Below are positions 22,025-38,974 of a stretch of DNA of 47,951 bases, piece after piece. Source of the stretch: a virus; IMG/VR virus record IMGVR_UViG_3300025141_011824, positions 1 to 47,951 of that record. The stretch is one strand, 5' to 3'. Position 1 is the first letter of the stretch. The number at the start of each line of letters is the position of its first letter. The notes beneath the pieces are model-generated. The model was not told the DNA's origin and searched no databases. It saw only the letters and a program-made list of their open reading frames with translations. The position numbers and the translations under genes are program-made.

Positions 22025-22404
22025 TGATTTTAGTCGAGAATGAAGAAAAATACTTTGAATTCATTCGTGAGCTACGAAATCATAGTCAAGTAAAAGAAGG
22101 GTTCATACAACAGCGGCACATACCGCTCTGTAAGCACTTAAAGTTTATGGAGAAATATGGTAACCTATATTATATCTGTCTAGTTCAAAACAATCCAGCA
22201 GGGTTTGTTGGGCAGATTAATGGAGATATCAGAGTTGCCGTACACCCAGATTTTCAAGGTCAAGGAGTCGGAACTTTCATGATTAACGAATTAATGAAAT
22301 TACACCCAGAAGCAGCAGCAAGAGTAAAATTAGAAAACGAAGCGAGCATCAAGCTGTTTGAGCGGTGCGGATTCAAAAAGAAATATTACATTCTGGAGAG
22401 ATAA
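22024..22404 (+). CDS. GNAT-type N-acetyltransferase
   Basis: 126 residues starting in a TAATG overlap. The acetyl-CoA motif VHPDFQGQGVGTFMINELMK has the Q-x-x-G-x-G signature, followed by NEASIKLFERCGFKK, the typical last GNAT strand and helix. In the cluster it probably acetylates an amino sugar formed by the aminotransferase encoded next. It is small, as in WecD-type sugar acetyltransferases. A protein substrate cannot be excluded. Confidence 0.85.
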   Translation: MILVENEEKYFEFIRELRNHSQVKEGFIQQRHIPLCKHLKFMEKYGNLYYICLVQNNPAGFVGQINGDIRVAVHPDFQGQGVGTFMINELMKLHPEAAARVKLENEASIKLFERCGFKKKYYILER

Positions 22405-23024
22405 TGCTTCACAACCCATATAAAATAGTAAAGATGTTTGAGGAAGAGGTTGCCCACTACACTGGCGCACCTTATGCCGTATCAGTTAACAGTTGTACCA
22501 ACGCCCTGTTCCTAGCCTGCAAGTATGTCGGTGTTGAGGGGCAAGATGTGATTGTTCCAAAGAGAACCTATCTTTCACCACCTCAGTCAATCAGACAGGC
22601 CGGTGGAAACCTTGTTTTCGAGGATATCAAGTGGAAAGGCATTTATCAGCTAAAACCGTTCCCTATTTACGACGCAGCAAAGCGTCTAACGTCCGGTATG
22701 TATATTCCAGGTACGTTTATGTGCCTTAGTTTTCACATTAAAAAACATTTGAAGATTGGAAAGGGCGGCATGATTCTTTGCGATGACCCAGAAGCAGTCA
22801 AGTGGCTCAAGGCCCGCAGGTACGAAGGTCGCACTGACGGCATGAAATACCACGAGGATATGATTGACGAGGAGGGTTGGAATATGTATATGACCCCAGA
22901 GCAAGCAGCCCGTGGGCTCACACTGATGCAGAACTATCCCAAAGATATGCCAGATCTACCAGAAGAGCCACCATATCGAGACCTAACAGAGTTTGAATTA
23001 TTTAAAGAGGTAAAAACAATATGA
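22404..23024 (+). CDS. Short DegT/DnrJ-like aminotransferase domain protein
   Basis: 206 residues, about half the usual 360-400, starting in a TAATG overlap. It keeps the PLP core: SVNSCTNALFLA, PKRTYLSP, PIYDAAK (Asp that holds the pyridine nitrogen) and SFHIKKHLKIGKGGMI, in which the catalytic Lys is present. The central segment and the whole C-terminal domain seem to be missing, but MTPEQAARGLTLMQ shows the end of the core in normal order. Either a minimised sugar aminotransferase or a partner subunit. It is not an obvious pseudogene, because the frame is clean and neighbours overlap it. Confidence 0.7.
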   Translation: MLHNPYKIVKMFEEEVAHYTGAPYAVSVNSCTNALFLACKYVGVEGQDVIVPKRTYLSPPQSIRQAGGNLVFEDIKWKGIYQLKPFPIYDAAKRLTSGMYIPGTFMCLSFHIKKHLKIGKGGMILCDDPEAVKWLKARRYEGRTDGMKYHEDMIDEEGWNMYMTPEQAARGLTLMQNYPKDMPDLPEEPPYRDLTEFELFKEVKTI

Positions 23025-24642: not shown

Positions 24643-25634
24643 AAAATTATTGGAAAAATAAGAACATTTTAATCACCGGAGCAGCCGGTTTTATCGGCTC
24701 AAACCTAGCAAAAGACCTAGTTTCAGAGGGAGCCAGCCTATTTTTGGTTGATAATTTGGAGCGAGGTAAGATGGAATACATCACAGACATCTTCAGCAAG
24801 GTATATTTCCTCAATGGAGACCTCCGAGATGAAGATTTTTGCGAGAAAATCTGTAAAAACAAGGATATTGTTATTCATCTTGCCTCAAAAGTGGGTGGAA
24901 TTGGATATTATACAAGCAAACCTTACGAGGTTATGAATGATAACATAAAAATTGACTCAAACATGTTGAATGCTGTAATCAAAAATGGTATTGACAGGTA
25001 TTTTTATGCCAGTAGTGCCCACATTTATCCTATTGAACTACAGGGAGAGCCAGAATCTCCTGCAATTTTTGAAGATCAGGACTATCCTGCAAACCCAGAG
25101 CTATCTTATGGATGGGCCAAGCTCATTGCTGAGAAACAAATTCAATATGCTTGCGAAGAAAACCCAAATCTCAACGTGGCGATGGCTCGATATATCGGAA
25201 TTTATGGTGAAAATCAAGAGTTTGCTCTTGAGACAGGCTCGGTTATTCCTGTTTTTTGCCATCGTGCCATCAAGCATCCCGAGATTCCTTTCAGTATTTG
25301 GGGAACAGGGCAAGAAACTCGGTCATACTGCTTCATCGACGACGCAATTGAGTGTACAAAGCTTATGATTCAGAAGATGGACGAGAAGCAGGTGGTAGGG
25401 CCACTCAATGTCGGTCAACAGACTCGCATAAAAATTGAAGATATCGCTAAGAAAGTGATTAAAATATCTGAAAAAGATGTTAAAATAGAATTTGACGAAA
25501 CAAAAGATACTTTGATATGGGGACAGATGTGCGATTGCACCAAGGCATTCACTGAGCTTGGCTGGAAAGCGCAAACAACCCTGGACGAAGGGTTAAAAAG
25601 AGTTTATACAGATATACAAAGGAGACTAAAGTGA
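24639..25634 (+). CDS. NDP-sugar epimerase, GDP-mannose 3,5-epimerase-like (extended SDR)
   Basis: 331 residues from the ATG in the ATGA overlap. GAAGFIGSNLAKDL binds NAD(P); SSAHIYP and YGWAKLIAEK hold the catalytic Ser/Tyr/Lys; GTGQETRSYCFIDD is the substrate end. The order of motifs, in particular the VGGIGYYTSKPYE segment and the SSAHIYP site, is nearest to GDP-mannose 3,5-epimerase, which gives GDP-L-galactose. A UDP-sugar 4-epimerase or decarboxylase is possible. Its neighbours support a GDP-sugar route. Confidence 0.75.
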   Translation: MKNYWKNKNILITGAAGFIGSNLAKDLVSEGASLFLVDNLERGKMEYITDIFSKVYFLNGDLRDEDFCEKICKNKDIVIHLASKVGGIGYYTSKPYEVMNDNIKIDSNMLNAVIKNGIDRYFYASSAHIYPIELQGEPESPAIFEDQDYPANPELSYGWAKLIAEKQIQYACEENPNLNVAMARYIGIYGENQEFALETGSVIPVFCHRAIKHPEIPFSIWGTGQETRSYCFIDDAIECTKLMIQKMDEKQVVGPLNVGQQTRIKIEDIAKKVIKISEKDVKIEFDETKDTLIWGQMCDCTKAFTELGWKAQTTLDEGLKRVYTDIQRRLK

Positions 25635-26557
25635 AAATTCTAATTACAGGCGGCGCAGGTTACATTGGCAGCGAACTTATTGATTATCTTATTGATGATC
25701 ACGAAGTTTATGTAGTAGATAACCTTATGTATGATGAGACATCTCTACTTCGGTATGTTCACCATGACAATTTTCATTTTGAGCGGGCTGATATTCGAGA
25801 CTTAAGGGTCATGAAAAAATATATGGATACATGTGACATCATTATTCCACTCGCAGCCCTAGTAGGTTTTCCTCTCTGCGAACGTCTCCCCCGAGATGCT
25901 ACTGAAATTAACTATGAAGCTAACAAATGGATTGCTGATGTTAAGTCAAAAGACCAGAGAGTAATCTATCCTTGTACAAACTCTGGCTATGGAACCAGCG
26001 TCAACGGAAAAATTATTACAGAGGAGGACCCTCTTAATCCAATTACACTTTATGGAAAGACGAAGGTCGAAGCAGAAGAGGTATATCGCAATACAGATAA
26101 TTGTGCCACTTTTAGACTTGCCACTGTTTATGGGCCATCCTCAAGAATGAGGACAGACCTATTGGTTAATAATTTTGTCTTAAAAGCTATCAAAGATCGT
26201 GTTATAGTTTTATATGAGTGTGAGTTCATGAGAAATTATGTACACATTCACGATGTATGTAGAGCATTCTTGATGTCTCTAAATCGATGGGACCTTTTCA
26301 ACAATGATACTTTCAATCTGGGGAACGATTCAATTAATATGAATAAGTTGCAGTTAGCACAGAAGATTAAAAATCACATGCCTCTTGAAATTATCAAAGC
26401 AGAGTTCACATCTGATCCTGATAAGAGAGATTACATCGTAAGCAGTGAAAAATTATATAACACGGGGTTTGAGTGTTCTTATGACCTGGATGATGGGATA
26501 AAACAACTCGTCAAAGCTTATAAGGTTATTGATTCCCCATGGTACGCAAACTATTAA
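25631..26557 (+). CDS. Extended SDR sugar epimerase/dehydratase
   Basis: 308 residues with a GTG start in a GTGA overlap. TGGAGYIGSELIDYL is the NAD site; PCTNSGYGTS and YGKTKVEAEEVYR are the catalytic Ser and Tyr-x-x-x-Lys; FRLATVYGPSSRMRTD and NYVHIHDVCRAF are the substrate region. It belongs to the broad NAD-dependent epimerase/dehydratase family and is unlike the previous and next SDRs in detail. The specific reaction cannot be told from sequence. It may be the C4 or C5 epimerase of a deoxy sugar. Confidence 0.75.
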   Translation: MKILITGGAGYIGSELIDYLIDDHEVYVVDNLMYDETSLLRYVHHDNFHFERADIRDLRVMKKYMDTCDIIIPLAALVGFPLCERLPRDATEINYEANKWIADVKSKDQRVIYPCTNSGYGTSVNGKIITEEDPLNPITLYGKTKVEAEEVYRNTDNCATFRLATVYGPSSRMRTDLLVNNFVLKAIKDRVIVLYECEFMRNYVHIHDVCRAFLMSLNRWDLFNNDTFNLGNDSINMNKLQLAQKIKNHMPLEIIKAEFTSDPDKRDYIVSSEKLYNTGFECSYDLDDGIKQLVKAYKVIDSPWYANY

Positions 26558-26566
26558 GGAAAACAA

Positions 26567-27517
26567 ATGTCATTCTGGAAAGATAAAAAAGTTTTGGTAA
26601 CTGGCGGCAACGGATTCGTTGGCACCCATGTAGTAAATCTCTTGCGAACGCATGATTGTAAGGAGGTTATTGTTCCTGGGCGTCACGATTATGATCTGAC
26701 CGTCGAGCGAGAAGTGGAGGCAATGTTTGAGGCTACAAAGCCAGACGTTGTTATTCATCTTGCAGGAAAGGTAGGCGGCATCGCCGCCAATAAAGCTTCC
26801 CCTGGAACTTTCTTTTACGACAACATTATGATGGGCACCCTGGTGTTAGAATATGCCCGACGCAACAACGTCCAAAAGACCGTTGCTCTCGCAGCAGGTT
26901 GCGGCTATCCCCTCAACTTAGACGTCCCATATAGTGAAGAAGACTTTTGGGACGGACTCCCACAAGTAGAATCTATGGGGTATTCTATGGGCAAGAAGAT
27001 GTTGATAATCCAGTCTTGGACATACCGCACGCAGTATGACTTCAACTCAGCTATTCTATTGCCTGCAAACCTTTATGGTCCGAATGATAACTTTCACTTG
27101 GAGAATAGCCATGTTGTCCCCGCTCTGATTCGCAAGTTCTTATCTGCCAAAGAAAACAACTTAGAGTCTGTGGAGATTTGGGGAACTGGGAATGCCACTA
27201 GAGAGTTCCTCTATGTGGAGGACACGGCCCAAGCAATTTTGGATGTTGCGGAGAAGTTTGACCAAACTGGACCTTTGAATCTGGGGACCGGCGTTGAGAC
27301 TTCCATCCGAGAGTTGGTAGAAACAATTTCAGAACTTGTAGATTATAAAGGAGAGATTGTTTGGAACACAGATCGTCCCGATGGTCAACCACGAAGATTT
27401 TATTCGATGGATCGGTTTGAAGAGAGTATGGGATATGTTCCCAGCACCACTTTGCGTGAGGGGTTAAAAAAGACAATTGATTGGTATCTCAATTCTGATG
27501 ACGAAAGGAGACTTTAA
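26567..27517 (+). CDS. fcl: GDP-L-fucose synthase (GMER/WcaG family)
   Basis: 316 residues with AAGGA upstream. TGGNGFVGTHVV is the NADP site; HLAGKVGGIAANKASP, AAGCGYPLNLDVPYSEEDFW, YSMGKKMLIIQSWTYR (Tyr-x-x-x-Lys) and LLPANLYGPNDNFHLENSHV are hallmarks of GDP-4-keto-6-deoxymannose 3,5-epimerase/4-reductase. It gives GDP-L-fucose from the product of GDP-mannose 4,6-dehydratase, which is not found in the window and may come from the host or from another phage region. In colitose pathways a relative (ColC) works after ColD, so it could also take a 3-deoxy substrate. Confidence 0.88.
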   Translation: MSFWKDKKVLVTGGNGFVGTHVVNLLRTHDCKEVIVPGRHDYDLTVEREVEAMFEATKPDVVIHLAGKVGGIAANKASPGTFFYDNIMMGTLVLEYARRNNVQKTVALAAGCGYPLNLDVPYSEEDFWDGLPQVESMGYSMGKKMLIIQSWTYRTQYDFNSAILLPANLYGPNDNFHLENSHVVPALIRKFLSAKENNLESVEIWGTGNATREFLYVEDTAQAILDVAEKFDQTGPLNLGTGVETSIRELVETISELVDYKGEIVWNTDRPDGQPRRFYSMDRFEESMGYVPSTTLREGLKKTIDWYLNSDDERRL

Positions 27518-28491
27518 TGAAAGTAGCCAGAGATTCGTCCGGAGAGTATTCGGATTGCGGATATCGTTATTTGGATTTTGAGAAGTTTGATGACGGAAGT
27601 CAAGAGGAAGTATTATTTTATGGATACGCCTCTGGTAGAAACAAGCAACTCATTGATGAGCACAAAGACTTTAAACGTAAAATATTCTATCAGGGAGAAC
27701 AGCCTTGTGGCTTTTACTCTCAGAACACTGTCGAGCGACAACAAAGCTTTGACCTTGGAAATGATTTCGATGAGGTCTATTCTACATGCCCTTATAGTGC
27801 AAAGTGGATGAATTTGATTCATGGGTATGATAAATATCGCCCTATCATCTTTCCACATAATATGAACTGGGCAGTTGGCGATGAAGAGCATGATAGATTT
27901 ATTGATGTTATGTATTGGGGAAACCTCCCTAATGCCTCCGTCGATGTTAGGCACATCATTGAAACAATTCCTAAATTCAAATATGCTTTCTTTACCCTGG
28001 GTCACGGCCTCACACCCGACCTTCATCAATATGTGAGTGGTGTCAATGTGCCACGTACCGAGATGTGGGGTTATCTTCGTCGATCTAAGATTATGGTGAC
28101 GTCCAACCTTCTATATATGACAGACCCAGAGGTTGCAGCAACCAAGTCACTAGATCGATGGAAGGAGAATGAGGCTTTTCATCTTATAGATCAGAAGATT
28201 ATGCCTCAGATTAAAACACGACCCATCGAGGCTATCTTCAATAAAACATTGGTCTTATTGAAAGAAGATCCTTGGAGAATCTTTGATTATTGGTTTAATG
28301 AGGGAGAGCATTTCCTTTATTATAAAAACAACGAAGACTTAGAGGACATGATTAGAGAGGTCACCACGAACTGGGATAAGTACAAACATATCCCAGAGAA
28401 CGCTTATAAAAGAGCGGTCGATCTATACACCACTGAAAAACTTTACCACAATATAAAAAAGGGGCAAGATGAGTTCAAATTCAAACACTAG
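27517..28491 (+). CDS. Putative glycosyltransferase, GT-B-like
   Basis: 324 residues starting in a TAATG overlap. The motif TRPIEAIFNKTLVLLKEDPWRIFDYWFNEG and then EHFLYYKNNEDLEDMI resemble the donor-binding half of GT1/CgeB-type enzymes (E in RPIEA, and the D near the end of the helix). The N-terminal half (CGYRYLDFEKFDDGSQ and YGYASGRNKQ) is not like a standard acceptor domain. I call it a likely glycosyltransferase with moderate confidence; it could be a different GT-B-fold protein. Confidence 0.6.
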   Translation: MKVARDSSGEYSDCGYRYLDFEKFDDGSQEEVLFYGYASGRNKQLIDEHKDFKRKIFYQGEQPCGFYSQNTVERQQSFDLGNDFDEVYSTCPYSAKWMNLIHGYDKYRPIIFPHNMNWAVGDEEHDRFIDVMYWGNLPNASVDVRHIIETIPKFKYAFFTLGHGLTPDLHQYVSGVNVPRTEMWGYLRRSKIMVTSNLLYMTDPEVAATKSLDRWKENEAFHLIDQKIMPQIKTRPIEAIFNKTLVLLKEDPWRIFDYWFNEGEHFLYYKNNEDLEDMIREVTTNWDKYKHIPENAYKRAVDLYTTEKLYHNIKKGQDEFKFKH

Positions 28492-28900
28492 AAAATATCT
28501 TCCAACATTATCCGAGCTTGTAGACAGACTTTCTATCGCTCAGTTGAAAGAGGTCTTTATTACAGAGCATAAGAGCGAATATGCTGAAGAAATTTCTGAT
28601 ATCATTCACGATATTAACTTAATATTTGATCAAAAACAAGTTATAATGGACGGAGACACCATTAGAGCAATTATTGTATTGTCGCAAATGAATTTGCACA
28701 TCTGGCATAACGAATCCAACTATCGTAAGGGAATCAAAGATGGAAACAACTTGGAGCTTACACACGGATTAAATGGTATTCGCAATACTGCCAAAAATAA
28801 AATACAAGAATTGTCCGGTGGTCGAAAAGATTATAAGATTGACTGCCTAGCAGCAGAATTTAAAGACTGGGAAATAAGTTGGAAAAAGGAGAAAAAATGA
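28469..28900 (+). CDS. Helical protein of unknown function in the sugar island
   Basis: 143 residues, overlapping the gene before by 23 bases. SELVDRLSIAQLKEVFITEH, a middle helical hairpin, and HGLNGIRNTAKNKIQE are the notable segments. The pattern LVDRLSI-LK... and N-G-R-N-A-K is one I have seen in glycan clusters of bacteria and phages. No catalytic residue can be assigned. Translation is coupled to both neighbours. It may be a small partner of a glycosyltransferase, but that is a guess. Confidence 0.5.
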   Translation: MSSNSNTRKYLPTLSELVDRLSIAQLKEVFITEHKSEYAEEISDIIHDINLIFDQKQVIMDGDTIRAIIVLSQMNLHIWHNESNYRKGIKDGNNLELTHGLNGIRNTAKNKIQELSGGRKDYKIDCLAAEFKDWEISWKKEKK

Positions 28901-29433
28901 AAGCACTTATCATAACACATTCAGGGTTTCAAGATCACGAGGTTATATACCCGTATCACAGCTTGAAAGAAAACAATTTTGAAGTGGATATTGTAGCTGA
29001 TAAACTAGGGAGATTTTACGGTATTTTAGGATGTCACATGGTTGGAGACATTTTAACAACAGATTTTAATGATCCTAAAAATAGAGAAAAGTACTTGGAG
29101 TACGACTTATTAGTCATCCCTGGTGGAGTAAAAGCTTTAGAGAAGCTAAGGCTAGAGACTGGCGTAGTTGAGTTCGTTCGTGAATGGAATGCATTGGATA
29201 AAACAATATTCTCTTTATGCAATGGTGCTCAATTGTTGATAACAGCAGATGCTATTAGAGGCAAGACAGTTTCTGGATACTATGCCATCGAGGCGGATAT
29301 CAACAATGCTGGTGCCACATACCACAGAGGCCCTGTTGTAGTCGATAGCAACATAGTATCCTCTCCTCATTACGATTTCATGGGTGAGTGGATGCGAACC
29401 GGCTATGAGGTCTTGGCTCAAAGAGAAAAATGA
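28897..29433 (+). CDS. DJ-1/PfpI superfamily protein
   Basis: 178 residues starting in the ATGA overlap. The nucleophile elbow IFSLCNGAQLLITA holds Cys108 in the typical C-N/G-G context, and E15 (DHEVIYP) sits where the family's Glu pairs with it. PfpI-type proteins act as proteases, deglycases or chaperones. In this context it could detoxify a reactive keto-sugar or glyoxal-like by-product, which is inference. Its presence inside a sugar cluster is unusual. Confidence 0.8.
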   Translation: MKALIITHSGFQDHEVIYPYHSLKENNFEVDIVADKLGRFYGILGCHMVGDILTTDFNDPKNREKYLEYDLLVIPGGVKALEKLRLETGVVEFVREWNALDKTIFSLCNGAQLLITADAIRGKTVSGYYAIEADINNAGATYHRGPVVVDSNIVSSPHYDFMGEWMRTGYEVLAQREK

Positions 29434-30107
29434 GTTACAAAAACAACATTGTCAATAAGCCATGGGGATATGAATATCTTGTTTATGAAAATGAGAATGT
29501 TGGCCTCTGGTATCTACACATAGAAAAAGAGCAGAGAACATCAATGCACTGTCATCCCAAAAAGAATACTGGGTTGGTGTTGCTGAAAGGTAGTGCAAGA
29601 ACTTCTTTCTTGAACAATAGTGTTAAGATGACTTCCTTGAAAAAGATCATGATTCGACGTGGTCTATTTCACTCTACTATGGGTATTTCAGAAGGCGGCG
29701 CTTCTATCTTTGAAATTGAAGCCCCCAAAGACAAGGCAGATTTGGTTCGTCTGGAAGATTCGTATGGGAGAAAGCTGTCTCCATATGAAGGTAAAAATAA
29801 AGAAGTCCCAAAAGGAGAAGAGTGTCTTTGGATTACTGATCCTGCCGAGGGGGAAGTAAATAGTTATTCTTTCTGCGACTGCACAATGACGACTGAAAAC
29901 ATCATCAACAAAGAACAACTATATAATCGCAATGATGATGATATTTTTATCTTTTTAAGGGGAGGATTGAGGACCAAAGAAGACGATCAGATAGCCCAAC
30001 CAGGTGACGTTTTGGATGGCCTGACTCTCGACAAATTATCAAGAGTGTTTGAGATTACCGATAAGGTAGTTTTATTATCTATAGGAGCAAACAATGGGGA
30101 TTCTTGA
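29430..30107 (+). CDS. Two-cupin protein, sugar-phosphate isomerase-like
   Basis: 225 residues in an ATGA overlap. NKPWGYEYLVYEN and the following HCHPKKNTGLVLLKGS have the cupin HxH...E pattern of type II phosphomannose isomerases, sugar isomerases and epimerases. The second half (FIFLRGGLRTKEDDQIAQPGD) looks like a weaker second cupin repeat. It may be a sugar-phosphate isomerase or a regulatory sugar-binding protein. Metal ligands are partly conserved. Confidence 0.65.
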   Translation: MSYKNNIVNKPWGYEYLVYENENVGLWYLHIEKEQRTSMHCHPKKNTGLVLLKGSARTSFLNNSVKMTSLKKIMIRRGLFHSTMGISEGGASIFEIEAPKDKADLVRLEDSYGRKLSPYEGKNKEVPKGEECLWITDPAEGEVNSYSFCDCTMTTENIINKEQLYNRNDDDIFIFLRGGLRTKEDDQIAQPGDVLDGLTLDKLSRVFEITDKVVLLSIGANNGDS

Positions 30108-30582
30108 AAAGGGAAAGCTTTATGTTTTTGATATCGACAGAACTTTTATCACAACTTACAACTCAGACGGCGAGTTGATTTGGCTTAAGAACATGGAAGG
30201 CCCATATGAGCGAGTAAGTGATAATGTTGTGGTGGGTTCTAATGGAACAAAAGCCGTACTTCACGAAGGTGTGGAGAAAGTTTTGAAACACTTACAGGGC
30301 CAGGGAAAGAACATTGCGTTCCTTTCGGTCGGAGGTCTGCTAGATGTGGATTATTACGATCAACCTTCTGTTAAGATAATGAAACTGTTTGGAATTCATT
30401 CTTATTTCAATCACGAGAGACTTCTGCTTTACAAGACAGCCAGAAAAGATACTGTCTTACAACACTTGCCTCCTTCAATCTTTTTTGATGATGACGAGAA
30501 GCACCTGGTAGCGACACTAAGACTAGACAACGTAACTGTTGTAGACAGAAAGAGTTTCACGTCCTGGGAGCAGTTATTATGA
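30094..30582 (+). CDS. HAD superfamily phosphatase (MDP-1/FkbH-like)
   Basis: 162 residues. YVFDIDRTF is motif I with the nucleophile Asp and the DxD, FLSVGG is the motif II region, and SIFFDDDEKHL is motif IV with its acidic pair. The chain is short with a small cap. It would remove phosphate from a sugar-phosphate intermediate. The gene overlaps the cupin gene by 14 bases and the E1-alpha gene by 4, so it is part of the same translation unit. Confidence 0.75.
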   Translation: MGILEKGKLYVFDIDRTFITTYNSDGELIWLKNMEGPYERVSDNVVVGSNGTKAVLHEGVEKVLKHLQGQGKNIAFLSVGGLLDVDYYDQPSVKIMKLFGIHSYFNHERLLLYKTARKDTVLQHLPPSIFFDDDEKHLVATLRLDNVTVVDRKSFTSWEQLL

Positions 30583-31412
30583 ACAACCAGGCGTTTAGGA
30601 TGAGGGTGTTCAAAACAGCATCACTTTGTCGGAATTTTGAAGACGCAGTGTTTTATCATCTTAACGAAAAGAATATAAAATTCCCAACTTATATGTCCGC
30701 AGGTCAAGAATACATACCAGCGACATTATCACAAATTTATAAGGATTTAGATCCAGCCCTGTTTGCACAGCATCGAGGCCATTCATGGTATCTGGCGTTC
30801 GGCGGGGACATGGTGAAGCTTATCGATGAGTTGCTCGGTCGCCCTACTGGATGTGCTTATGGAATGGGCGGCTCCGCATCTATTCACTGTCCAGAGATTA
30901 ATATGTTTGGTCATGATGGCCTCATGGGTAGTCAAGTTCCAATTTCTGTTGGGTATTGTTATTCTAGCCGGAAACCAACCATTGCGGTGATGGGCGATGC
31001 TTCTGCCGAGGAAGACTACGCTCTTGGAGCAATGGGGTGGGCTTCCACAAAGAACCTTCCTATCCTATTTGTAGTCGAGGACAACAACCTTTCTATTCTA
31101 ACTGAGAAGCGAAAGAGGAGAAACTGGGAGATGCATGACGTTGCCAAAGCTTTTCAAATGAGGGGTTATGATCTTGACGACGACCCGCTTGAGATTTTAA
31201 ATCATTGTGGTCGTTCAATTGACTCCCCTCGCCTGCTGAACATAAAGACAAATCGGCTTTATTGGCACGCAGGGGCAGGGATAGACGATCCAGATACCTT
31301 TGACCGATATAAGCACGAAATGCTCGCACTCGGTGATGAAGCAGCGGAGATTCATGAAACAACTAAAGAAATGGTAAACCAGGTATGGCTAAAACAGTTA
31401 GAGACACAATAA
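30579..31412 (+). CDS. Thiamine-diphosphate enzyme, E1 alpha subunit type
   Basis: 277 residues in an ATGA overlap. FAQHRGHSWYLAFGGD, GRPTGCAYGMGGSAS and GSQVPISVGYC match E1 alpha of 2-oxo-acid dehydrogenases (PDH/BCKDH/acetoin type). The ThDP-Mg motif runs from G139-D140 to N169-N170. In 2-oxo-acid dehydrogenases, alpha and beta form the active site and pass an acyl unit to lipoyl E2. No E2 or E3 gene is present here, and 277 residues is shorter than typical E1 alpha (about 330-400). An alternative acceptor, such as a keto sugar, is an inference. Confidence 0.88.
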   Translation: MNNQAFRMRVFKTASLCRNFEDAVFYHLNEKNIKFPTYMSAGQEYIPATLSQIYKDLDPALFAQHRGHSWYLAFGGDMVKLIDELLGRPTGCAYGMGGSASIHCPEINMFGHDGLMGSQVPISVGYCYSSRKPTIAVMGDASAEEDYALGAMGWASTKNLPILFVVEDNNLSILTEKRKRRNWEMHDVAKAFQMRGYDLDDDPLEILNHCGRSIDSPRLLNIKTNRLYWHAGAGIDDPDTFDRYKHEMLALGDEAAEIHETTKEMVNQVWLKQLETQ

Positions 31413-32299
31413 AAGAAATTACACGTTCTCACTTGACAGAGAAAAACGGCCTTGCATTTGGACAGTGTCTCACTGCCGTAGGTTGGGTCGGGGGCACTTT
31501 GCCCCACCTATATGAAGAAGACGGTATGGTAGAGTTGTCAATGGCTGACGTCGCAGGCGGCGGAATCGTTGTTGGTTCCGCTCTTGCTGGGAGGCGACCA
31601 ATGTATGTTATCCGATATCAGGGTTTCAATTGGTACAACTGCCCAAGTATTGTAAATTATGCGGCCAAGTCTCAGGAGATATGGAAGACTCCGTGCCCCC
31701 TCCTTGTACGAGGAATTGCAATGGAAGGTTCCATCGGCCCAGTGGCAGGCTCCTCTCATCATTCACTCTATTATCGAATGCCGGGGGTCAAGATTGCTAG
31801 TCCCATGACGCCAAAAGAATACGAGCAAGTGTATGATTATTTTATGAAAAATGAAGATGTGGTGTATGTATCAGAGCATAGAGGTAGTTACTTGAATACA
31901 GAAGAAATGCCCGATACCCTCCATTCTGATTCTGATATTGTATTGTTTCCTATTTCCATCACACGCTTTGAAGCAGTGAAGGCAAGTAAGATCTTGTTAG
32001 AAAAAGGAATAAAAGCAAGCGTCGCCCACATCAGGTGGATTAAGCCGTTTCACATAGAGGAAGATTGGAAGACAACCCTAGCAAGCTCTAAATACGGTGG
32101 GATGGTTCTGGATGATGATTATGTTGACGGAGTAGCAAAGAGTATTGCTCACGACATCACAATGGAAACCGGAAGACCAGTTTATACAATGGGTTTAGAG
32201 AATAAGTCAGCAGGTTTTGCCAAAGGAGTAGATAACCTACCTCCCACTGCTGAACAAATAGTACAAAGAGTTATAAAAATTAAAGGAGAGTTAGAATGA
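31385..32299 (+). CDS. Thiamine-diphosphate enzyme, E1 beta subunit type
   Basis: 304 residues, overlapping the alpha gene by 28 bases. ELSMADVAGGGIVVGSALAGRRP, RGIAMEGSIGPVAGSSHHSLYYRMPGVK and the C-terminal transketolase-like segment AHIRWIKPF match E1 beta (pyrimidine-binding domain and C-terminal domain). The strong coupling to the alpha gene says they form one enzyme. It lacks the extended N-terminal part of some PDH beta chains. The pair stands beside the 2OG oxygenase, radical SAM and ColD-like genes. Confidence 0.88.
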   Translation: MAKTVRDTIKEITRSHLTEKNGLAFGQCLTAVGWVGGTLPHLYEEDGMVELSMADVAGGGIVVGSALAGRRPMYVIRYQGFNWYNCPSIVNYAAKSQEIWKTPCPLLVRGIAMEGSIGPVAGSSHHSLYYRMPGVKIASPMTPKEYEQVYDYFMKNEDVVYVSEHRGSYLNTEEMPDTLHSDSDIVLFPISITRFEAVKASKILLEKGIKASVAHIRWIKPFHIEEDWKTTLASSKYGGMVLDDDYVDGVAKSIAHDITMETGRPVYTMGLENKSAGFAKGVDNLPPTAEQIVQRVIKIKGELE

Positions 32300-33219
32300 G
32301 TTTAGAGAAAAGAATAAGAGGATTTGATCATCTTGGAAGTCGATTCTCACATGAAAGATTGGACAGGGTGTTGATAGGATATAAAATTCCGGATGAACTG
32401 TTTAAAAGATTTCAAACAGCAGCAGCTACCTATATCTCTCGTTGTCTACCAGGAGAACAATATACATTGTCTGATGAAGATTTGATGCAGAGGCTGGAAA
32501 AACACTATAGTGAGATTCAAAACATCACACCTAATGGGATGATGGTTCCTAAGAGGCATCTTAATGTAGAATATAACCTGTTGGTTAAGTCCTTTGCTGA
32601 TATTATTGCTTCTTGTAATATCAACGATTTGGTCTCCAGTTGGCACGTTCCTTTAAACCTTAGAGTCAAGTTGGGCCAAGCAGACGACGCCAACCTGCTT
32701 CGACACCACCCCACCGAACACATCCATTCAGATAGTTGGGCAGGAGAGTCGAGCGAGAGCGTCACCACTCATATTCCTATTTTTGGCGATGTTGAAAGAA
32801 ATCATTTGACTTTCTTCTCCCCTCCTGATGATTTTCAAGAGGAGTGGCTGGGAGCACTTCCTTCATATAGAGACGGAGGTCATATTGCAGAAAGATACAA
32901 TCACTTAGACGTGATACCTCAAAAGGGATATCTTTATTTTCATGACTTCTCTGGCCTGCACTCTTCTCACCGTTTTCCTAATGCGGGCGCAAGAGTTACG
33001 CTTGATACAACTTTCGTACTAAACCGACCAGAGCCAATTTTAGGTACTGAGCACCCTTGGAGAGAAAATGAGAGAGCAACCAACGAAACACTTTCATCTC
33101 TCGGAGACCAAAAGCTTTTTTATTTTCCAGATACCAATGAGGAGTTTGTAGACAGCGAAGGCGGTTTCAAACACCCAACCAATCTTCATATTCTTGATTT
33201 GGAAACAAAAAATGGCTAA
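32296..33219 (+). CDS. 2-oxoglutarate/Fe(II) oxygenase-like protein
   Basis: 307 residues in an ATGA overlap. EHIHSDSWAG supplies the HxD pair (H144, D146) of the iron-binding facial triad; HDFSGLHSSHRF supplies the distal His (H222 or H225), and R233 in AGARVTLD would bind 2-oxoglutarate. The double-stranded beta-helix region between them has the right length. It may hydroxylate or desaturate a sugar intermediate. Family members in phage sugar clusters are known, but the substrate here is not. Confidence 0.7.
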   Translation: MSLEKRIRGFDHLGSRFSHERLDRVLIGYKIPDELFKRFQTAAATYISRCLPGEQYTLSDEDLMQRLEKHYSEIQNITPNGMMVPKRHLNVEYNLLVKSFADIIASCNINDLVSSWHVPLNLRVKLGQADDANLLRHHPTEHIHSDSWAGESSESVTTHIPIFGDVERNHLTFFSPPDDFQEEWLGALPSYRDGGHIAERYNHLDVIPQKGYLYFHDFSGLHSSHRFPNAGARVTLDTTFVLNRPEPILGTEHPWRENERATNETLSSLGDQKLFYFPDTNEEFVDSEGGFKHPTNLHILDLETKNG

Positions 33220-34735
33220 AAGGTTAGATATATTATTTATTCACCCGAATGCTTCCAAAAAAATCTATCAAGATTTGAGCAAGAATCATTCAGCCATCGA
33301 GCCTCCTATTTGGGCAGCAATGCTTGCGAACCACTGTCGTATTAATGGTTTCGGAAGTCAAATTCTCGACTGTGAGGCAGAGAGAATAAATTATATGGAG
33401 GCAGCACAGACTATCAAGGATATAAATCCCAGAGTCGCTTGTTTCGTTGTCTATGGGCAACAACCTAGTGCATCAACTCAGAACATGGCCGGGGCTGTTG
33501 CTCTAGTTGACGAGTTGAAAAAGCTTGCCCCTAACCTTGTAACTCTTTTTGTTGGAGGTCATATCTCTGCTCTCCCAAAAGAAACTCTACGTCAAGAGGA
33601 GAGTATTGATATGATATGTCAAAATGAAGGCGTGTACACTATCAGTAGCCTTCTTTCGCTTTCAGACTTGACCGATGAGACAGAACTTAGAAAGGTAAAG
33701 GGACTAGGATATAGGGTAGATGGAGAACCAGTCCTGAATGAGTCTTCCCCTGTTGTTTCAAGGGGTGACCTGGAGACAGATTTACCAGGAATGGCTTGGG
33801 ATCTGTTGCCAGATATTAAAAAGTATAGAACTGCTGGGTGGCACTCCTGGTCAAACAATTCAGACAAGGAACCATTCGCAGCACTTTACACGAGCTTGGG
33901 TTGTCCCTATAAGTGTTCCTTTTGTATGATCAATATCATCAATAGAACTAATCCTGCCCCGCACATTGCAAGCTCAGACAGTAATCTGTTCCGTTGGTGG
34001 AGGCCAGAGTTTATTATCAAACAATTTGACCAGATAGCAGCAATGGGAGTCAAGAATGTTAAGATAGCAGACGAACTGTTTGTTTTGAACCCACAACACT
34101 TTTTGAAGATTTGTGAATTGCTTATTGAAAGAGATTATGGTTTCAACATCTGGGCTTATTCTCGTATCGACACTTGTAAGCCAAAATACCTTGAAACTTT
34201 GAAAAAGGCAGGCGTAAATTGGCTTGGCCTTGGAATTGAAAATCCAAATCAAACTTTGAGAAAAGAAATTCATAAAGATGGCTTTAAAGAAGTGGGAATA
34301 CTTGATATAATACAGGAAGTAAGAAATGCTGGCATCAACGTTGGCGGGAATTATATTTTCGGATTACCTATGGATACGGAGGAATCTTTGCAGGAAACAT
34401 TAGACTTTGCGCTAGAGAACAAGACTGAAATGGTCAATATGTACTGCGCCATGGCCTACCCTGGAAGCCCTCTCCATTTGTCTGCAAAGCAGAATAATCT
34501 GGAACTCCCATCGACATATTCAGGATACAGTCAGCATTCTTATGATACGTTGAACTTGTCTAACGACAATCTAACATCTGAACAGATTTTAAGATTTAGG
34601 GACAAGGCTTGGATGACTTACCATACGGACCCATCGTATCTTGAGCTTCTCAAAGACAAGTTTGGAGCAAAAGCAAGTCAGAATGTCGAGAACTCTACTA
34701 AGATTAAGTTAAAAAGAAAATTACTTGGAGATTAA
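33212..34735 (+). CDS. B12-binding radical SAM enzyme
   Basis: 507 residues from the ATG that overlaps the preceding stop by 8 bases. The N-terminal part (ILFIHPNAS, AAMLANHCRINGFGSQILD, VGGHISALPKETL) is a B12-binding Rossmann-like domain. The radical SAM cluster motif CPYKCSFC is at C231, C235 and C238, preceded by TSLG. GLGIENPNQTLRKEIHKDG is the typical later motif. Members methylate or rearrange unreactive carbons, for example C-methylation of sugars and antibiotics, using SAM. It is in the same unit as ColD-like and E1 genes, so a C-methylation of the sugar is plausible. Confidence 0.88.
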   Translation: MAKRLDILFIHPNASKKIYQDLSKNHSAIEPPIWAAMLANHCRINGFGSQILDCEAERINYMEAAQTIKDINPRVACFVVYGQQPSASTQNMAGAVALVDELKKLAPNLVTLFVGGHISALPKETLRQEESIDMICQNEGVYTISSLLSLSDLTDETELRKVKGLGYRVDGEPVLNESSPVVSRGDLETDLPGMAWDLLPDIKKYRTAGWHSWSNNSDKEPFAALYTSLGCPYKCSFCMINIINRTNPAPHIASSDSNLFRWWRPEFIIKQFDQIAAMGVKNVKIADELFVLNPQHFLKICELLIERDYGFNIWAYSRIDTCKPKYLETLKKAGVNWLGLGIENPNQTLRKEIHKDGFKEVGILDIIQEVRNAGINVGGNYIFGLPMDTEESLQETLDFALENKTEMVNMYCAMAYPGSPLHLSAKQNNLELPSTYSGYSQHSYDTLNLSNDNLTSEQILRFRDKAWMTYHTDPSYLELLKDKFGAKASQNVENSTKIKLKRKLLGD

Positions 34736-34736
34736 T

Positions 34737-35927
34737 GTGACAACTTTTAAAAAATTTAGAGCACAAAACATAACATACCCTCTCGCAATGGAGACTATCA
34801 GTAACGATGATATCGATGCTCTCTGTGAGTGGTTGAAATCCTACCCTAAATTAACTAAGGGTGATTTGACCTTGGAATATGAAAAGCAGTGGGCAGAGTA
34901 CATTGGTACTAAATACGCAGTGTATTGTAATTCAGGTTCGTCTGCCAACCTACTGATGATTTATGCAGCACATGTTTCAGGAATGATGAAGAATAATAAG
35001 ATTGCTGTTCCATCTGTAGGGTGGGTAACAACAATCGCACCAGCTATTCAGTTTGGATTAGAGCCTATTATGCTGGGAGCGGACAAAGAGACCTTCGGAA
35101 TGGACTTAGACCAACTAGAGGAGTTGTGCAAGACAGATCCTCCAGGTGCGGTTATTTACGTTCAGGTTTTGGGAGTCCCTCACTACAAGGAAAGATTGAT
35201 GGCCTTGAAAGAAGAATATGGATTTGTTCTCCTTGAGGACTCTTGTGCTGCTCTCGGAGCAGAATATTCAGATGGAACCATGGTTGGGCAGATTGGAGAT
35301 ATGTCAAGCTTTTCTTTCTACTTTGGTCATCAACTATCATCTATTGAAGGTGGCATGGTAAACACTGATAATAAAGAACTCTACGACTTGATGATGATGC
35401 TCCGTAGTCACGGTTGGGGAAAAGACCTTGATACTGAGACCTATGATGGACTGATTGAAAAGCACGGAGTTGACGACTTCCACAAGCCCTTTACCTTTTT
35501 CGTCCCAGGATTCAATTTCAGATCAACTGATTTGCAAGCCTTCTTAGGTTTGAAGCAAATGGAAAAGGCAAAGTGGGTAGCTCAAAGAAGGTACGAAAAC
35601 CATCTTCGCTACGCCAGAAACCTAGAGGGATATGTTCAATATCAGAACTGGAGAGGGCATAAGCCTGTTTCAATTTCTTTCGGAGCCCTTGCAAACAGCA
35701 CTGAGCATCGACAGGAGATAATCAATAGACTTGTGGAAAAGAAGATTGAAACTAGAATCTTCAGCGCAGGCAACTTAGGTCGCCACCCATTCTGGGTTGA
35801 GAGATACGGACAGTTTGATGATGAGGTGAGTAATAAAATTCACGAACAGGGATTTTTTGTACCAAACTACCCTGAATTGACAAACGAGGATATCGACTTT
35901 ATCTGCAAGGTTATTAAAGGTGAGTAA
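34737..35927 (+). CDS. colD: ColD-like sugar 3-dehydratase (DegT family, His in place of Lys)
   Basis: 396 residues from a GTG with GGAG 6-7 bases upstream; the frame has a TTG four codons earlier without a SD. KYAVYCNSGSSANLLMIYAA, PSVGWVTTIAPAIQFG, LLEDSCAALGA and VPGFNFRSTDLQAFLG agree with DegT/DnrJ enzymes. In SFYFGHQLSSIEGGMV, the position of the PLP-Lys is His198, the mark of ColD-type GDP-4-keto-6-deoxymannose 3-dehydratase, which uses PLP and glutamate to remove the C3 hydroxyl. The product is GDP-4-keto-3,6-dideoxymannose, the entry to colitose. An RfbH-type CDP enzyme also has His but would need a ferredoxin-like partner, not seen here. Confidence 0.85.
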   Translation: MTTFKKFRAQNITYPLAMETISNDDIDALCEWLKSYPKLTKGDLTLEYEKQWAEYIGTKYAVYCNSGSSANLLMIYAAHVSGMMKNNKIAVPSVGWVTTIAPAIQFGLEPIMLGADKETFGMDLDQLEELCKTDPPGAVIYVQVLGVPHYKERLMALKEEYGFVLLEDSCAALGAEYSDGTMVGQIGDMSSFSFYFGHQLSSIEGGMVNTDNKELYDLMMMLRSHGWGKDLDTETYDGLIEKHGVDDFHKPFTFFVPGFNFRSTDLQAFLGLKQMEKAKWVAQRRYENHLRYARNLEGYVQYQNWRGHKPVSISFGALANSTEHRQEIINRLVEKKIETRIFSAGNLGRHPFWVERYGQFDDEVSNKIHEQGFFVPNYPELTNEDIDFICKVIKGE

Positions 35928-36676
35928 TGAAGGTTCTTGTTCTAGGAGACAGTTGTCAAGATGTTTTTGTCTATGGTGAGTGTAATCGTTTAGCTCCCGC
36001 AGCCCCAGTTCCAGTATTTGTTGAACAGTACCGGAAAACCAACCGAGGCATGGCAGGAAATGTTTGGGAAAATCTAAAAGCATTTGGAGCGGACTGTGAT
36101 TTCTTTGCCAATCAAGCAGAGATCACCAAGACTCGCTACGTGGAGACAAAGACTAATCATATGATAGTCAGGGTTGATTCTAGTGAAGATAGGATTGATC
36201 GTATTGATACGCAACGTTTACAGAAATCTGACTTAGAACAATATGACGCCGTCGTTATATCTGATTACAACAAAGGATTCCTCTTAGAAGAGGATATTGA
36301 CTTTATTGCCAAAAATCATAATTTAGTCTTTTTAGATACAAAGAAGATTATTGATGACTGGGCCGCTGAAGTAAACTATATAAAGATCAATGAGATAGAA
36401 TATGAGAAAACGCAGCATTCTCTCGCAGATAAGGGCTGGATTTACGACAAGCTAATAGTTACCAAAGGATCAGAAGGGTGCTACTATAAAGACAAGAATT
36501 TCCCAGTGAAAAAAGTAGACATTAAAGACCTCACAGGGGCTGGTGACACATTTCTTTCTGGTTTAGTTTTCAAATATGTAAAGACAAGGGATATTGAAAA
36601 GTCTATTGTTTTTGCAAATAACTGTGCCACTCACGTGGTTCAACTAAAAGGAGTTAATACAATCAATGCGCTTTAA
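35927..36676 (+). CDS. PfkB-family carbohydrate kinase, HldE-kinase-like
   Basis: 249 residues in a TAATG overlap. DSCQDVFVYGECNRLAPAAPVPVF is the start of RfaE/HldE-type kinases (usual PEAPVPV). DLTGAGDTFLSG holds the catalytic GAGD. RGMAGNV and VVQLKG fit too. It would phosphorylate C1 of a sugar 7-phosphate or similar. It is about 60 residues shorter than the E. coli HldE kinase domain. The matching nucleotidylyltransferase lies two genes downstream, so the functions that HldE combines are split. Confidence 0.85.
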   Translation: MKVLVLGDSCQDVFVYGECNRLAPAAPVPVFVEQYRKTNRGMAGNVWENLKAFGADCDFFANQAEITKTRYVETKTNHMIVRVDSSEDRIDRIDTQRLQKSDLEQYDAVVISDYNKGFLLEEDIDFIAKNHNLVFLDTKKIIDDWAAEVNYIKINEIEYEKTQHSLADKGWIYDKLIVTKGSEGCYYKDKNFPVKKVDIKDLTGAGDTFLSGLVFKYVKTRDIEKSIVFANNCATHVVQLKGVNTINAL

Positions 36677-36956
36677 AGAATATTATCAATACTATCTTAC
36701 ACTTCACCAAAACAAATGGTGTAGAAGATTACATGTACTAGGACAACTAACAACACTGTTGTTTTTGTATCTTGTCATCGCCAGCAAGTCATGGCTCTTG
36801 CTTCCATTGGCCCCCTTCGTGGTCTATCCCTTCGCCTGGACGGGTCATTTATATTTTGAGAAAAACAAACCCGCAGCGTGGAAGCGGCCCATCATTGCCA
36901 AAGCATGTGACTGGGTTATGTTAAAAGATATCATAATTGGACGAGTGAAGTGGTAA
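36666..36956 (+). CDS. Mpo1/DUF962-like membrane protein
   Basis: 96 residues, overlapping the kinase gene. YYLTLHQNKWCRRLHVLGQ and WTGHLYFEKNKPAAWKRP are the two His-containing motifs of DUF962, which includes yeast Mpo1, an iron-dependent dioxygenase of 2-hydroxy fatty acids. Two membrane helices are seen in the middle (TLLFLYLVIASKSWLLLPLAPFV region). In a phage it may process a lipid-linked intermediate or simply anchor something at the membrane. A sugar-cluster location is unexpected. Confidence 0.8.
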   Translation: MRFKEYYQYYLTLHQNKWCRRLHVLGQLTTLLFLYLVIASKSWLLLPLAPFVVYPFAWTGHLYFEKNKPAAWKRPIIAKACDWVMLKDIIIGRVKW

Positions 36957-37345
36957 AAAAAGTTTGGACTAATGGATGCTTTGATATCCTTCACCGAGGA
37001 CATCTTGAGATGTTTCAGTACGCCAAGTCTTTGGGAGACTATCTGGTTGTCGGAATAGACACCGATGAAAAGGTCAAGAGGGACAAAGGACCCGAAAGAC
37101 CCTACAATTGTCTCAGTGATCGAAAGTTTATATTAGAATCAATTAAATTTATTGACGAGGTAGTCGTCTTTGATTCTTCACAGGGATTAGAAAACTTAAT
37201 AAAGTCTAACCAACCTGATATAATGGTAATTGGTTCAGACTGGAAAGGAAAGAAAGTTGTAGGACAACAACACGCAAAGGAGTTAGTGTTTTTTGATAGA
37301 ATAGGAAGCTATTCCACAACAAACATTTTAGAAAATAAAAAATGA
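36950..37345 (+). CDS. HldE/RfaE C-terminal-type nucleotidylyltransferase
   Basis: 131 residues from a GTG overlapping the preceding stop. TNGCFDILHRGHLEMFQYAKSLG has the HxGH motif (H15-H18), then GIDTDEKVKRDKGPERPYN and IGSYSTTNIL (ISxTxx-like) as in HldE domain II and glycerol-3-phosphate cytidylyltransferase. It would attach AMP, CMP or GMP to the sugar-1-phosphate made after the kinase and phosphatase steps. With the PfkB-like gene it forms a split HldE pair. Confidence 0.85.
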   Translation: MVKKVWTNGCFDILHRGHLEMFQYAKSLGDYLVVGIDTDEKVKRDKGPERPYNCLSDRKFILESIKFIDEVVVFDSSQGLENLIKSNQPDIMVIGSDWKGKKVVGQQHAKELVFFDRIGSYSTTNILENKK

Positions 37346-38020: not shown

Positions 38021-38974
38021 ATGAAACTGGTAACGATTACAGGGTGTTTGGGCCTCATTGGCTCCTACGTAACCAAGCGATGCTTACAGAAGGGCTGGAG
38101 GGTATACGGAATCGATAGCTGCACTTACGCAGCCAATAAGAGCTTTCTCAAAGGATTCCAGCAATACGAGAACTTTACGTTCATCGAAGAGGACATCGCT
38201 ACGCTGGACTACCTACCAGACTGCGATTACGTAATCAACATTGCAGCCGAGTCTCACGTTGGAAACAGCATTATCGATAGCACGGACTTCATCAACACCA
38301 ACATCATCGGTGTGAGAAATCTGCTTGACCTTATCCGACGCAAGCCAGACAACGTAGACGACCGTCCGGTCTTCTTCCATTTCAGCACCGACGAGGTCTA
38401 CGGAGACATTGACGAGGGAGATCACTTTGAGACAGACCTTCTCAAGCCAAGCAACCCGTACTCAGCATCTAAAGCCTCCGCAGACATGCTTATCCTTGCC
38501 TGGGCACGAACCTACAACCTGGATTACCTAATCCTTCGCCCAACAAACAATTACGGCATCGGCCAATACCCAGAGAAGCTTATACCCATTTCTGTTAAAC
38601 ACCTACGCAGAGGAAAGAAGATTAGACTTCACAACAAGGGAGAACCTGTCAGAAACTGGCTACACTCCCACGACACCGCTGAAGCAGTCATAACAATCAT
38701 TGAATCTGGTAAGAGAAACGAAATCTTCAATGTTTCTGGTGACTTCGAGCAAGAAAATTGGAAAACAGTTAAAAAGATCATCGAATTGTATTATAATGGT
38801 ACTGAAGTCAATTGGGAAGATTATGTAGACCTTTCCCACGTTCGACAAGGACAGGATGTCCGCTACGCCCTCAACGACGATAAGTTGAGAGCACTTGGCT
38901 GGGAGCCTGAAATGGACTTCAACGATGAGATTGCTAGAATTGTAGAATACTACAAAAAAAACTTTAAATGGTAA
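38021..38974 (+). CDS. dTDP-glucose 4,6-dehydratase-like SDR (RmlB family)
   Basis: 317 residues. GCLGLIGSYV is the NAD site (with CLG in place of the usual GGG), FHFSTDEVYGD is the family's STDEVYG signature, and PYSASKASADMLILAW and RPTNNYGIGQYPEKLIP are RmlB hallmarks. It dehydrates a nucleotide sugar at C4-C6 to a 4-keto-6-deoxy product. It is the last gene of the sugar island; the next gene is 15 bases away with its own AAGGAG. Donor could be dTDP, UDP or GDP. Confidence 0.88.
   Translation: MKLVTITGCLGLIGSYVTKRCLQKGWRVYGIDSCTYAANKSFLKGFQQYENFTFIEEDIATLDYLPDCDYVINIAAESHVGNSIIDSTDFINTNIIGVRNLLDLIRRKPDNVDDRPVFFHFSTDEVYGDIDEGDHFETDLLKPSNPYSASKASADMLILAWARTYNLDYLILRPTNNYGIGQYPEKLIPISVKHLRRGKKIRLHNKGEPVRNWLHSHDTAEAVITIIESGKRNEIFNVSGDFEQENWKTVKKIIELYYNGTEVNWEDYVDLSHVRQGQDVRYALNDDKLRALGWEPEMDFNDEIARIVEYYKKNFKW

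Follow-up and report, generated by a model that had tools for sequence, protein, structure and literature searches.

The virus record was analysed over its whole length of 47,951 bp (the window) and encodes a T4-type late sigma factor, PhoH and a head protease. On its plus strand, two genes code for E1-like ThDP subunits: an E1-alpha-like subunit of 277 aa (30579-31412; PF00676 67 bits), which carries the ThDP motif GDASAEED...EDNN, and an E1-beta-like subunit of 304 aa (31385-32299; PF02779 38.6 bits, PF02780 27.7 bits). We refer to this pair as E1αβ. The first-pass annotation had described the two subunits as whole and translation-coupled, and indeed both genes are intact and overlap by 28 nt. 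Directly upstream, on the same strand, lie genes for a DJ-1/PfpI-family protein (28879-29433; PF01965 111 bits; invariant Glu and Cys in the alignment), a bicupin with a metal-binding HxH motif (29430-30107; assigned by alignment and by the double-barrel cupin matches of a model with pLDDT 90.9) and an MDP-1-like HAD phosphatase (30094-30582; assigned by alignment, with a weak match to TIGR01685 below the cut-off). Downstream, also on the plus strand, E1αβ is followed by an Fe(II)/2-oxoglutarate oxygenase-like protein (32296-33219), a B12-binding radical SAM protein (33212-34735), a ColD-type PLP/PMP 3-dehydratase (34725-35927), a PfkB kinase similar to the HldE kinase domain (35927-36676; TIGR02198 120 bits, below the cut-off), an HldE-adenylyltransferase-like nucleotidyltransferase (36950-37345; TIGR02199 120.6 bits, below the cut-off) and an RmlB-like 4,6-dehydratase with the active-site motif STDEVY (38021-38974; TIGR01181 292.5 bits, below the cut-off). 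Two SDR genes stand further upstream on this strand: one (25631-26557; PF01370; cluster 6) is a frequent partner in related cassettes, and the other (26567-27517; NF047922 283.7 bits, below the cut-off) codes for a GDP-fucose-synthase/ColC-like SDR, a possible pathway reductase. The operon had earlier been confined to 30579-35927. The gene content of that span was borne out, but its limits are too short: they leave out 28879-30582, where the genes for DJ-1, bicupin and HAD are part of the module.

A radical SAM protein and a 2OG oxygenase had been assigned to the operon, and both assignments hold. The former contains Radical_SAM and B12-binding domains (PF04055 71 bits, PF02310 49 bits) and the motif CPYKCSFC. 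The latter (32296-33219) had no match in Pfam or NCBIfam. Its relatives keep the facial triad and Arg, HxD...H...R (H144, D146, H222, R233), and the best fold matches of its model (pLDDT 84.5) are the PhyH-type Fe/2OG oxygenases SnoK, SnoN and PtlH. By triad, Arg and modelled fold, it is a predicted Fe(II)/2OG oxygenase.

The product of 34725-35927 has the DegT fold, and its best solved relative is ColD (2gms, 173 bits, 1e-49). As in ColD, the PLP Lys is replaced by His and the [2Fe-2S] cysteines are absent. Thus, the earlier description as a ColD-like dehydratase with a catalytic His is correct, but the residue is His202 in the ORF and not His198. The His is present at this position in 95/95 members of the cluster. 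Across the loci, the DegT partners are only about 30% identical, yet the catalytic His is invariant. His-type DegT proteins occur in 45 of 56 full-length loci; within eight genes of E1αβ, 59 DegT proteins are of the His type and 5 of the Lys type. The ColD partner is not universal, because E1αβ is present in the SAR11 draft genomes G038 and G051 and a full-length DegT was not found in them. GMD was not found in the window, where the RmlB-like 4,6-dehydratase is present instead; a GMD-like SDR occurs in 24 of 86 relatives.

E1αβ has the two-subunit E1-type architecture, with PF00676, PF02779 and PF02780 all above their cut-offs. Among family models, those for PDH E1 match it best, yet the score is 104.8 bits against a cut-off of 393.85. 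It had been stated that no E2 lies near E1αβ, and a lipoyl E2 elsewhere in the genome would have spoken for an ordinary E1. No Biotin_lipoyl domain was found in the 47,951-bp record, and a 2-oxoacid_dh domain was likewise not found in 34 related virus records, which reach 186 kb but may be fragments. Because the initial domain search can miss weak domains (PF02779 in the window was missed and then found by hmmscan), the absence of E2 was rechecked with local profiles: this E2 search covered 9,176 ORFs, those of the window together with those of related loci, and gave 0 matches. In 6 of 15 genomes that bear E1αβ (drafts), an E2 domain was not found; some hosts do have E2. E1αβ might be a conventional E1 of the PDH or acetoin-dehydrogenase kind that serves a host lipoyl E2 and supplies more acetyl-CoA during infection, as the best family matches and the E2 of some hosts would allow. 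However, the score is far from the cut-off, E2 was found neither in the virus records nor in the glycan loci, the pair falls into a clade of its own in which Asp replaces Glu, it stands among sugar genes, and a YerE-like enzyme can replace it (both described below). This metabolic-boost reading was rejected as highly improbable.

Sequence comparison sets E1αβ apart from other ThDP enzymes. The 28-nt overlap is kept exactly in 46 dereplicated loci, and the ThDP motif positions of E1α are almost invariant among 127 relatives. Activation of the ThDP aminopyrimidine by Glu is a general feature of ThDP enzymes. In E1β, Asp55 occupies the position of the catalytic Glu, and Asp is found there in 125/125 aligned relatives, whereas every other E1-beta, mini-pair and transketolase row of the tree has Glu. 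This replacement could alter the chemistry. The first-pass annotation had likened the pair to AviB1/AviB2. In a tree built without the sequences of AviB1/AviB2, Pau11/Pau12 and KbDH, the Asp-type E1β forms its own long-branch clade (support 100/100), apart from the Glu-type E1-beta linked to ColD; because of this separate clade and the Asp for the catalytic Glu, E1αβ is probably not simply an AviB1/B2-like enzyme. The bearers are aquatic phages, SAR11/SAR116 and CPR bacteria; in CPR genomes α and β are fused into one protein, and some loci contain a second ThDP α/β pair. Among cultured phages, no close relative of E1α or E1β was found, and literature searches yielded nothing pertinent on E1 enzymes in viruses or on ThDP enzymes of the Asp type.

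Neighbours were counted in 86 dereplicated E1αβ loci, viral and bacterial; for GC-rich plasmid loci, the annotated gene coordinates were used. The loci are sugar-gene neighbourhoods. The most constant neighbours are the bicupin (73/86) and DJ-1 (71/86). The closest solved relatives of the DJ-1/PfpI protein are DJ-1D and PH1704. A fold search with the bicupin gave no single outstanding enzyme.

E1αβ is accompanied by bicupin and DJ-1 more constantly than by the dehydratase. This fits an alternative in which the ColD-type enzyme and a GMER/ColC-like SDR make colitose, and E1αβ, DJ-1 and bicupin form a separate route in the same glycan island. The ColD-type gene is often adjoined by a GMER/ColC-like SDR gene in viral loci, and this SDR could reduce the 4-ketone; the two SAR11 drafts in which full-length DegT was not found also fit. 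However, the His type is enriched beside E1αβ (59:5) as compared with DegT proteins elsewhere in the sampled bearer genomes (His:Lys = 7:15), and on an Azospirillum plasmid a related E1α-E1β directly precedes a true ColD. Together with the co-variation described next, these observations make separate routes quite unlikely.

DJ-1 and bicupin, usually together with HAD, are also kept in 16 distinct viral loci whose E1αβ slot is occupied by a ThDP enzyme that consists of a single chain (about 577-616 aa; PF02776/PF00205/PF02775). These replacements have the TPP_enzyme_N/M/C architecture of YerE-like carboligases, which E1αβ does not. YerE/JanthE-like enzymes are an AHAS-fold class that works on α-keto acids and ketones. 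The best solved relative of the replacement is 8RPH (383 bits), followed by acetolactate synthase (268); 8RPH is JanthE, a YerE-like enzyme (PMC12188165). Among the viral loci, 62 contain E1αβ only and 1 contains both E1αβ and the single-chain enzyme. The type of dehydratase changes along with the ThDP enzyme: an RfbH-type dehydratase with Fe-S cysteines is present in 11/16 YerE-like loci versus 2/59 viral E1αβ loci, where the ColD type is the partner. The substrate of YerE is CDP-4-keto-3,6-dideoxyglucose (PMC12247030). This slot swap is the strongest evidence for the carboligase reading. Because a JanthE-like enzyme fills the same slot and the dehydratase type swaps along with it, E1αβ most likely has a function analogous to that of YerE.

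E1αβ could instead be a transketolase- or DXS-like synthase of an unusual ketose phosphate, which the bicupin would isomerise to an aldose and a kinase (HddA- or HldE-type) and HAD would convert to the sugar 1-phosphate; only after activation would the SDR and the ColD-type enzyme dehydrate it. Heptose-type kinases are indeed present in most loci: among 46 viral loci, 14 have an HddA-like GHMP kinase, 23 a PfkB kinase and 0 both. Moreover, the window holds both HldE halves and a HAD, no GmhA-type SIS domain was found in the 34 virus records, and phosphomannose-isomerase cupins are among the bicupin fold matches. Against this stand the AHAS-fold enzyme in the slot, the co-varying dehydratase, and transketolase/DXS-sized ThDP matches elsewhere in bearer genomes, which would make a second ketose-phosphate source redundant. 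We regard a ketose-phosphate synthase as unlikely.

The proposal that E1αβ is a lipoyl-independent ThDP carboligase acting on the keto sugar made by the ColD-type enzyme is thus well supported by comparison, through the absence of E2, the conserved His-type dehydratase and the YerE/JanthE-like replacement. The further details of the first-pass annotation (pyruvate as the source of a C2 unit, GDP as nucleotide, C-methylation, hydroxylation) are putative. It is likely, in our judgement, that the module is a phage-borne nucleotide-sugar operon for a branched-chain 3-deoxy sugar with E1αβ as this carboligase. A 4,6-dehydratase (the RmlB-like protein of 38021-38974 or a host enzyme) would form an NDP-4-keto-6-deoxy sugar, from which the His enzyme, ColD-type by sequence, would remove O3, so that a 4-keto-3,6-dideoxy sugar results. 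Mainly because a YerE/JanthE-like enzyme replaces E1αβ in its slot, we infer that E1αβ needs no E2/E3: it would decarboxylate an α-keto acid on its ThDP and transfer the resulting acyl anion to C4, the ketone carbon; the product would be a tertiary alcohol bearing an acyl branch. An SDR would then reduce the branch ketone, and the B12-radical SAM and 2OG enzymes may add methyl or hydroxyl groups to the branched sugar. Neighbouring glycosyltransferases probably use this sugar to remodel the host surface glycan. To our knowledge, DJ-1, bicupin and HAD do not belong to the yersiniose pathway, and a plain yersiniose-type route leaves them and the heptose-type kinases unexplained. Speculatively, these three are near-obligate helpers, perhaps makers of the α-keto-acid donor. 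We tentatively extend the proposal: the Asp-type two-subunit clade, widespread in aquatic phages, CPR and SAR11-type bacteria, may be an undescribed keto-sugar carboligase that activates its cofactor with Asp and is supplied by DJ-1, bicupin and HAD with a donor other than pyruvate, by which phages write a new branched sugar on the host surface.

Branched sugars that owe their side chain to a ThDP carboligase are known from antibiotics and, among bacterial surface glycans, from a limited number; SAR11 is among the most abundant bacteria. From its genes, the virus described here suggests that marine phages probably make a rare branched surface sugar. E1αβ is a distinct two-subunit carboligase candidate with an altered catalytic acid, recurrent in aquatic phages and SAR11. 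It suggests a concrete chemistry, open to testing, for some of the sugar genes that are still uncharacterised in the hypervariable regions of phages. It is also a natural case in which to ask whether Asp can stand in for the Glu that activates ThDP, and a candidate for the biocatalytic synthesis of tertiary alcohols.

The hypervariable region of pelagimyophages carries LPS genes (rfaE, glycosyltransferases), which are thought to alter the host O-chain (PMC7029224). The present locus is similar in its phage-borne sugar and glycosyltransferase genes; in contrast, no ThDP carboligase or 3-dehydratase module was found in the searched passages of that account (PMC7029224). The phage dehydratase shares with ColD of the GDP-colitose pathway the catalytic His and the lack of Fe-S cysteines, and ColD is its best solved match. 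However, it is distant (173 bits) and stands in a module with E1αβ, and its nucleotide and substrate are putative. Two-subunit E1-like enzymes put C2 branches on keto sugars in antibiotics (PMC4425429, PMC12247030). AviB1/AviB2, Pau11/Pau12 and KbDH-alpha/beta (aKADH2) resemble E1αβ in being E1α/E1β pairs, apparently with neither E2 nor E3, that belong to deoxysugar clusters in which a 4-keto intermediate is formed, but they are described from antibiotic clusters, whereas E1αβ is an Asp-type clade of aquatic phages, SAR11/SAR116 and CPR. YerE, JanthE and ErwE, which serve LPS branched sugars, consist of one AHAS-type chain and work with an RfbH-type dehydratase, whereas two E1-type subunits and a ColD-type enzyme are found here. 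Nevertheless, a JanthE-like enzyme takes the same slot, with DJ-1, bicupin, HAD, a His-type 3-dehydratase and an SDR as partners, and lipoyl-independent ThDP carboligation would be common to both.

The window, a complete virus record of 47,951 bp, encodes a late sigma factor, PhoH and a head maturation protease, which indicates a T4-like phage, and approximately 16.1–39.0 kb of its plus strand is densely packed with sugar and glycosyltransferase genes. Within this region lie two intact E1-type ThDP subunits, E1α (30579–31412, plus strand; PF00676 above cut-off) and E1β (31385–32299, plus strand; PF02779 and PF02780 above cut-off), whose scores are far under every PDH equivalog cut-off. The two genes overlap by 28 nt, and the identical overlap is present in 46 dereplicated loci. 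They are followed, in order, by genes for a 2OG-oxygenase-like protein (HxD...H...R present; PhyH-type fold matches), a B12-binding radical SAM protein and a ColD-type dehydratase with His202. Thus, the domains, motifs and His202 bear out the gene set that the first-pass annotation described in a phage. A 143-aa protein (28469–28900) shows 82–88% identity among several such phages and is better conserved than most surrounding sugar genes.

The E1α search gave 10 viral loci, and an E1β profile retrieved 75 loci from viruses and 50 from cells. The cellular matches come from SAR11 (Pelagibacteraceae), SAR116, Thiothrix-labelled single cells, marine Betaproteobacteria and Burkholderiaceae, Magnetospirillum, CPR (Yanofsky- and Daviesbacteria, Sungiibacteriota), Nitrospiraceae and Omnitrophota. 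Dereplication at 90% identity left 46 viral and 40 cellular loci. Within eight genes of E1β in these 86 loci, we counted E1α in 83, bicupin in 73, DJ-1/PfpI in 71, DegT in 55, GMER-like SDR in 40, HddA-like kinase in 39 and B12-binding radical SAM in 33. The order DJ-1, bicupin, HAD, E1α, E1β and then DegT is common among the viral relatives. Therefore, the constant core extends beyond the interval of the first-pass annotation (30579–35927) and takes in the genes directly upstream. In three CPR genomes, E1α and E1β form a single fused chain of 627–631 aa, which indicates that both subunits act as one enzyme (E1ab). These natural fusions are from Candidatus Yanofskybacteria (L124:9020–10903, L126:9014–10909 and L132:6689–8584).

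In the E1β tree, a long branch leads to a single clade (100/100) that holds all family members, separate from PDH, acetoin-dehydrogenase and Glu-type ColD-linked E1β. The position of the Glu that touches the ThDP aminopyrimidine is Asp in all 125 aligned family sequences and Glu in every outgroup row; pairwise alignment with PDH E1β also puts the Asp at this site. To our knowledge, the sole well-known natural exception to this Glu is glyoxylate carboligase (Val).

Some loci possess a second, Glu-type ThDP pair besides E1ab. In L128, L112, L100 and L091, a full-length Glu-type pair shares the glycan locus with the Asp-type pair and groups with a ColD-linked pair from Azospirillum; in L128 it immediately adjoins a His-type dehydratase. 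A miniature pair (approximately 200 + 178 aa), which keeps the Glu and has no C-terminal transketolase domain, adjoins or lies near E1ab in L094:10912–12060, L098, L086, L057, L046 and L077. Because an E1α-like piece of equal size occurs in loci with a YerE-like enzyme (L228:4276–4905 and L252), the miniature pair probably has a function of its own.

The DegT proteins of many loci are only ~30% identical to each other and seem unrelated on first comparison, but the catalytic Lys position is His in 95 of 95 DegT cluster members. Over all dereplicated loci, 65 DegT proteins are His-type and 9 Lys-type (59 versus 5 within eight genes of E1β), and a His-type protein is present in 63 of the 86 loci and in 45 of the 56 that are full-length. 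In contrast, fetched full-length DegTs elsewhere in twelve E1ab-bearing genomes comprise 7 His-type and 15 Lys-type (Fisher p = 7e-8, a loose value given the relatedness of the sequences and the choice of the genomes partly for having no nearby DegT). No full-length DegT was found in two E1ab-bearing SAR11 drafts, G038 and G051. An independent case comes from Azospirillum lipoferum, where a plasmid carries a Glu-type E1α–E1β pair immediately 5′ of a clear ColD (408 bits against the solved ColD sequence), with a glycosyltransferase gene nearby. The window also encodes a short Lys-type DegT protein (219 aa, 22365–23024). Conservation of this short length among its relatives makes a small, stable family more probable than gene decay.

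No lipoyl E2 partner of E1ab was detected. A Biotin_lipoyl domain was not found in the window, a 2-oxoacid_dh domain was absent from 34 virus records of up to 186 kb, and a local E2 profile matched none of 9,176 ORFs from the window and loci. Among 15 bearer genomes, 6, all drafts, contained no E2 domain.

In the main, less likely alternative, E1ab would be a transketolase/DXS-like synthase that makes an unusual ketose phosphate. In the 46 viral loci, we found an HddA-like GHMP kinase in 14, an HldE-like PfkB kinase in 23 (in the window, 35927–36676) and both in none. No GmhA-type domain was detected in the 34 virus records. Heptose-type kinases without this domain may point to a heptose-type acceptor sugar, or else to production of a sugar phosphate inside the cassette, and this counts towards the synthase explanation.

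A second survey, anchored on bicupin and DJ-1 rather than on E1, recovered loci that keep the order DJ-1, bicupin, HAD without E1ab. Their E1ab slot is occupied by one protein of approximately 577–616 aa with three acetolactate-synthase-fold domains, whose top solved relative is 8RPH (383 bits; the second, an acetolactate synthase, scores 268). 8RPH is JanthE, a YerE-like enzyme that joins α-keto acids to ketones (PMC12188165). Counted by distinct viral DJ-1 sequences, E1ab occurs alone in 62 cases, the YerE-like enzyme alone in 16, both in 1 and neither in 7, the last being mostly short contigs. In one phage with both, the divergent YerE-like enzyme (L050:1390–3237) is on the opposite strand and has a CDG ThDP motif, as reported for JanthE. 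All 16 YerE-like-only loci possess a His-type dehydratase. The dehydratase type switches together with the ThDP enzyme type: the RfbH-type, with Fe-S cysteines, occurs in 11 of 16 YerE-like loci versus 2 of 59 viral E1ab loci. CDP-4-keto-3,6-dideoxyglucose is the product of the RfbH-type enzyme. The same compound is the substrate of YerE (PMC12247030). The simplest reading is that each ThDP enzyme would use the product of its own 3-dehydratase, and that the predicted sugar substrate of the YerE-like enzyme would be CDP-linked; that of E1ab is probably GDP-linked. Comparative genomics thus favours the central proposal of the first-pass annotation, and supports E1ab as a predicted lipoyl-independent carboligase acting on a 3-dehydratase product. 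This proposal is strengthened most by the slot exchange, because the YerE-like enzyme replaces E1ab beside the same partners and the dehydratase co-varies.

The DJ-1, bicupin and HAD genes (28879–30582) are nearly obligate. Because they are common to the E1ab and YerE-like versions, they probably serve a reaction common to both ThDP enzymes, and perhaps supply an α-keto acid. In DJ-1, Glu21 and Cys114 are invariant in the alignment, and the nearest solved proteins are DJ-1D and PH1704. In two phyla, a 2-isopropylmalate-synthase-like gene is immediately 5′ of E1α (L128:7764–9038 and L131:7994–9160), and this adjacency hints that the α-keto acid donor might be chain-elongated.

Two-subunit sugar-branching enzymes are encoded in antibiotic clusters, namely AviB1/B2, Pau11/12 and KbDH (PMC4425429, PMC12247030). 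In its predicted mode of action, E1ab is similar to these enzymes. However, we keep E1ab outside their group.
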